Made by a program: the position numbers and the translations under genes
NCBI GenBank assembly: GCA_948474755.1
Contig: CAOLHI010002119.1
Location: 1 to 64,000 of the forward strand
Direction: 5' to 3'
DNA: 64,000 nt
From: Ctenosaura bakeri
Lineage: Eukaryota > Chordata > Lepidosauria > Squamata > Iguanidae
Shown here: positions 58,171 to 58,287 of the stretch, in pieces
How the letters are laid out: every line of letters begins with the position of its first letter
How positions within the stretch are numbered: the stretch's first letter is position 1
The notes under the pieces: model-generated
The model's database searches: none
The model's input: the letters and a program-made list of their open reading frames with translations, nothing else
What the model was told of the DNA's origin: nothing

Positions 58171-58287
58171 AAGGCACAGCATGGCGATAAAGGTTATCTC
58201 TAATAGTCTGTTGCAGCTCGTGATCTGGAGATCCTTTCTGAAACCTCTGGTTGAGATAATGTCTCAGATCTTTGTTCAGACGACTTC
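58171..58287 (-). CDS. MAGI1: Internal coding exon of a MAGI scaffold gene, best match MAGI1
   Basis: Read on the minus strand, the 117-nt exon starts after a T-rich tract ending in CAG and ends at a GTAAGTGA donor. One frame is open throughout: GA finishes a codon begun in the previous exon, 38 codons follow, and a final T starts the next codon (phase 1 at both ends). The peptide begins [20 protein letters not shown] and continues through [18 protein letters not shown]. This is the stretch between PDZ domain 0 and the guanylate-kinase-like domain in MAGI proteins. From family knowledge, MAGI1 has RLNKDLRH(F)[28 protein letters not shown] here, while MAGI2 and MAGI3 have KGSVDH and YLRT variants, so MAGI1 is the best call. 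MAGI1 is a membrane-associated guanylate-kinase scaffold at tight and adherens junctions. The other exons are outside the window. The expected next residue after HAVP is Cys (CTTR in the family), which agrees with the split T codon. Confidence 0.93.

Follow-up and report, generated by a model that had tools for sequence, protein, structure and literature searches.

The MAGI1 exon and its boundaries

The window analysed here, a stretch of 64,000 nucleotides corresponding to bases 1-64000 of a 290,767-base contig (in a genome of 1.90 Gb and 8006 contigs), contains what is almost certainly an ordinary internal coding exon of the cell-junction scaffold gene MAGI1 (membrane-associated guanylate kinase, WW and PDZ domain-containing protein 1). 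The exon lies on the minus strand, and the genome is that of a reptile, most likely a squamate. This call draws on the sequence of the exon, its frame, its splice signals, its assignment among paralogues and its isolation in 290.8 kb of contig. Judging from the sequence, the exon is presumably spliced in this animal, and it probably ranks second among the coding exons of the gene. Its coordinates are given in Table 1 with those of the surrounding features.

Table 1. Features of the MAGI1 locus in the 64,000-nucleotide window
Feature	Position	Strand	Remarks
Part of the downstream MAGI1 intron	1..58170	-	at least 58 kb; tblastn shows no other MAGI1 exon
Splice donor GTAAGT	58165..58170	-	GT ranked 247 of 6632; consensus on the intron side, weak on the exon side (CTT)
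MAGI1 internal coding exon, presumably the second coding exon	58171..58287	-	117 nt, phase 1/1; connects the PDZ0-coding and guanylate-kinase-like parts; frame, protein identity, tblastn
Splice acceptor (pyrimidine-rich tract and CAG)	58288..58302	-	AG ranked 9 of 9116
Start of the upstream MAGI1 intron	58288..64000	-	at least 232 kb, as it reaches the end of the contig (290,767)
Flank matching the annotated 5' end of a MAGI1 isoform from Varanus	58397..58522	-	23/42 residues, E 2e-10
Exon-like element	58478..58543	-	66 nt; acceptor 8.9 and donor 8.1, both higher than in the MAGI1 exon

Read on the minus strand, the exon starts at base 58287, directly after the AG at 58289-58288, and ends at base 58171, ahead of the GT at 58170-58169. 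The junctions are TTTATTTCCTGCAG|GA at the acceptor and T|GTAAGT at the donor, so that the letters run GA AGT CGT CTG ... CCT T between TTTATTTCCTGCAG and GTAAGTG. The 117 bases divide into 2 + 38x3 + 1, which makes the exon symmetric, entered and left in phase 1, with 38 whole codons and no stop. The split codons, represented by two bases at the start and one at the end, are those of Gly and Cys, since MAGI1 proteins read so. Stops interrupt the plus-strand frame beginning at 58171, the one plus frame that was read. The original prediction, which named no strand, of an exon at 58171-58287 flanked by an acceptor and a donor and symmetric in phase, was thus exact to the base.

All candidate splice sites in the window were ranked with simple position matrices, which gave the exon an acceptor score of 8.4 and a donor score of 2.3. 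The donor's modest rank is due to its exon side, CTT, a weakness that speaks against an exon, as does the lack of companion exons discussed below. Among combinations of acceptor, open frame and donor 60-300 nt long, four, the MAGI1 exon included, reach its score or surpass it, and three of these four have a length divisible by three. The exon had been described as the only small frame with a good acceptor and a good donor; strictly, this does not hold, as its splice-site pair is equalled or surpassed by three others. Splice signals by themselves are therefore insufficient to single out the exon; it is the protein match that does so.

Assignment to MAGI1

A 40-residue query (the exon with its split codons) was compared with about 5.8 billion proteins at E values up to 1. 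It obtained 1324 matches, and the best 120 of these 1324 are all identical to the query over its full length, 40 residues of 40, which bears out the proposed identification of the gene. They are named as MAGI1 of lizards (Podarcis, Zootoca, Varanus and others), turtles, an amphisbaenian and caecilians. Extending the query by the upstream flank added MAGI1 proteins of alligator, birds and mammals to the matches listed. Full-length MAGI1 proteins retrieve the exon by tblastn with an E value of about 2e-20 for the bare 40-residue match, whereas Pfam reports one sub-threshold match only for the exon peptide. The window's own translation (P0001) was excluded from the tblastn, 5'-end and paralogue counts.

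The exon edges are the points at which MAGI1 proteins diverge from the window, mostly with ...KAVRQ before and TTRPPREGEVPG after, and both the edges and the phase are as the protein requires, AVRQ|G ... VPC|TTR. In 103 of the 120 MAGI1 proteins listed, the peptide starts at residue 99-108, and TTRPPREGEVPG follows in nearly all. A protein search, proposed as a check, thus has MAGI1 orthologues at its top, with protein edges that coincide with the exon boundaries. Reptile MAGI1 orthologues share the 40 residues around the exon and the same junctions, and no difference was seen within the exon.

Could the exon belong instead to MAGI2 or MAGI3? These proteins are of the same family and carry the same segment at the same position, and the match found among solved structures is itself a MAGI2 protein (PDB 7ykf, E 2.3e-13, chain residues 99-135). 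The segment also has the same length in MAGI2 (7ykf and fish). We retrieved MAGI3 proteins with a MAGI3 stretch and compared them with the exon over 39 residues, the counts on each side being those of the best matches of each search and not of all members. Among 195 distinct proteins listed by the MAGI1 searches, 39/39 residues agree in 177, 38 in 13, 36 in 4 and 35 in 1. The 120 proteins listed by the MAGI3 search have 26/39 in 112 cases, 25 in 4, 29 in 3 and 30 in 1, and MAGI3 of gecko, skink, Elgaria, Eublepharis, tegu, Podarcis, Anolis and Varanus each have 26/39. Three entries of that search are labelled MAGI2, two of which (P0313 and P0315, from fish) reach 29/39; 7ykf agrees at 28 of 37 residues in an alignment counted by hand. 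The end of the peptide also differs, NLYRHAVP here against NLYLRTVP in MAGI2 and NLYLRTIP in lizard MAGI3. The exon is nearer to MAGI1 (39/39) than to fish MAGI2 (29/39) or lizard MAGI3 (26/39). The better match to MAGI2 or MAGI3 that would have told against MAGI1 was thus not observed, and we dropped the two paralogues, with MAGI2 represented by fish and by 7ykf, as extremely improbable.

The substitutions foreseen in the peptide, Gly to Ser and Phe to Tyr relative to human MAGI1, were both recovered, along with one further Arg/Lys exchange, in a comparison with bear MAGI1 (GGKLNKDLRHFLNQRF); here the reference is the bear and not the human protein.

Some database names deserve caution. The Platysternon MAGI1 protein P0079 also carries the NCBI label SEC62, and two alligator proteins named as MAGI1 isoforms (P0242 and P0243) were retrieved by the MAGI3 search, the segment of P0242 being of MAGI3 type with 26/39 residues shared with MAGI1. 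All of these are likely labelling errors.

Place of the exon in the protein

MAGI1 has the domain order PDZ0, GK, WW, WW, PDZ1-5, of which a single exon was found on the 290.8-kb contig. Judging by published work and by homology with the MAGI2 protein 7ykf, phase-1/phase-1 splicing would add 39 residues linking the N-terminal PDZ0 to the guanylate-kinase-like (GK) domain, and these residues would form the start of the GK-like fold. The nucleotide-binding P-loop has the motif GxxGxGK, a pattern that is absent, by eye, from the 39 residues. The exon thus appears to encode a GK-like segment devoid of a P-loop, as in the MAGI subfamily of MAGUKs. The GK of MAGI proteins is described as lacking its CORE and LID parts (PMC1978500), and the MAGUK GK domain as a catalytically inactive, protein-interaction module (PMC8428372). 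The 12-residue core of the exon peptide did not occur in the literature searched. The exon is the expected orthologue of a well-known gene and, as such, ordinary. Its interest lies rather in what it tells about the DNA around it, as it provides gene, strand and probable lineage for a 290.8-kb contig, and in the fact that its 38 codons were correctly picked out by eye from the sequence alone.

An isolated exon between long introns

Beyond the window, the analysis covered the other 226,767 bases of the contig. With 120 MAGI1 proteins as tblastn queries, there is no second MAGI1 match in the window (the next best has E 0.02 at 26% identity and is noise-like), and with 195 MAGI1 proteins no convincing further exon occurs on the 290,767-base contig (next best E 0.49). 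Queries limited to the part of MAGI1 before the exon, or to the 140 residues after it, brought nothing convincing from the contig either, with best foreign E values of 0.11 and of 0.21, the latter outside the window; P0001 was kept in these two queries, where it supplies the top rows and is uninformative. The proposal that one exon anchors the whole window therefore extends to the entire contig. Since the contig has no other convincing MAGI1 match, the introns extend over at least 58 kb downstream and at least 232 kb upstream. Introns of such length are expected, because human MAGI1 has 25 exons spread over about 685 kb (PMC8428372).

An exon standing alone on 290.8 kb of DNA might also be a dead copy, either a processed pseudogene or a stray duplicated exon. 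A processed origin does not fit, because the exon carries intronic splice signals. As for a stray duplicate, the frame is stop-free and has no amino-acid change relative to many other reptiles, and the 1.90-Gb genome contains one match to the 251 bases at 58100-58350 (the tool's counts are lower bounds). The upstream flank moreover matches a Varanus MAGI1 model, and the isolation itself is what the very long introns expected in MAGI1 would produce. We consider a dead copy very improbable, and retain an ordinary internal exon of MAGI1.

The upstream flank and alternative 5' ends

The exon peptide is common to lizards, turtles and others, and is uninformative on lineage. The flank, 110-235 bases upstream of the exon, is more telling. 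Two Varanus isoforms, P0022 and P0122, begin upstream of the exon, in place of PDZ0, and the 5' end of P0122 aligns to 58522-58397 with 47.8 bits, while 200 shuffled versions did not exceed 25.4 and none came near. The 5' ends of tortoise, side-necked turtle, parrot, Tasmanian devil and bear MAGI1, which are of the readthrough type, have no match in this flank of the window, their best matches (E 0.041 to 0.34) lying elsewhere on the contig. Another tortoise model, P0035, displays a weak extension from the exon to 58360. These negative results speak against the lineages concerned as close relatives, though only weakly in the case of distant ones. A squamate origin of the flank-bearing DNA is likely, since the flank matches the Varanus 5' end and those of these other lineages do not.

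Is the exon also entered from an alternative 5' exon, or from an intronic promoter just upstream, yielding a MAGI1 protein devoid of PDZ0? The two Varanus models start in this flank, which also harbours an exon-like element of 66 nt, and PDZ0-less forms of MAGI2 arising from other translation starts are known in rat brain (PMC8428372). Furthermore, 16 of the best 120 of 1324 matches deviate at their 5' end from the usual AVRQ or AVRP, and six of these 16, from Pelodiscus and Podarcis, are not confined to UniRef. The other ten, however, are found in UniRef only; eight of them finish in FLFA, apparently reading straight through the acceptor, and four have no start Met. The Pelodiscus and Podarcis 5' ends were not found near the exon. 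We examined and rejected a candidate for the Pelodiscus 5' end at 63334-63438 (minus strand), about 5 kb upstream: although it is the best match to that end, with 13/35 residues and E 0.011, three of 200 shuffles equal it, and it has no good donor.

The Varanus-like flank itself raises similar doubts. At the junction VIF|G, the window has a phase-compatible donor at 58429|58428, which is the one that P0022 would require, but it is weak, ranking 1493 of 6632 GTs, and the matching frame has no Met in its conserved part ahead of the junction. P0122 continues past this junction, and resemblance to the window is greater past the donor (10/11 residues) than before it (13/31), a pattern compatible with simple resemblance of introns among related lizards. 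In the search including the flank, only P0122 stood out (104 bits, the next match having 84) among the best 120 of 1321. The available portions of the literature on MAGI1 exon 2 and PDZ0, on alternative promoters in intron 1 and on the PDZ0/GK structure of MAGI2 make no mention of a reptile MAGI1 with an alternative 5' exon. We regard this second entry to the exon as unlikely, and conventional splicing from PDZ0 as the preferred reading.

The 66-nt element overlaps the Varanus-like flank. Placed between canonical exon 1, which ends with one base of the Gly codon, and the MAGI1 exon, it would read G GG AGA AAA AAA TGA. As a TGA is met at once, the element could be a poison exon or part of an untranslated 5' end, or it could be nothing at all. 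The strong donor of the element has probably not been retained in Varanus, where the protein has GY against VS in the window. That the 250 bases upstream hold a squamate alternative 5' exon or poison exon, whether of 66 nt or a longer one ending at 58429, is unlikely. As a putative alternative or poison exon, the 66-nt element is the only item at this locus that is possibly new. If real, an exon in this position would set the amount of PDZ0-less or degraded MAGI1 message, in a way comparable to the translation starts of MAGI2, and it would matter because MAGI forms lacking PDZ0 could bind partners differently.

Other features of the window and contig

The window contains no tRNA and no Rfam family. 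A Pfam search of ten of its 146 stop-to-stop frames of at least 75 aa gave nothing above cut-off and two sub-threshold matches, one of them to a reverse transcriptase. Four related frames resemble the 3' part of a LINE reverse-transcriptase gene, at 43194-43973 and 55175-55609 on the minus strand and at 487-855 and 16334-16693 on the plus strand; we take them to be of CR1 type. The 260-codon frame among them is stop-free and has a sub-threshold match to Pfam RVT_1 (E 0.046). Within the window, 10,205 bases are taken up by repeats that it shares with the contig. Elsewhere on the contig, within the presumed MAGI1 intron, the stretch 195071-195424 (minus strand) is stop-free and rich in Arg-Ser dipeptides. 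In the window, we also noted a perfect tandem duplication of 27 bp at 23163-23215 and a perfect TCA repeat of 14.3 copies at 55650-55692.
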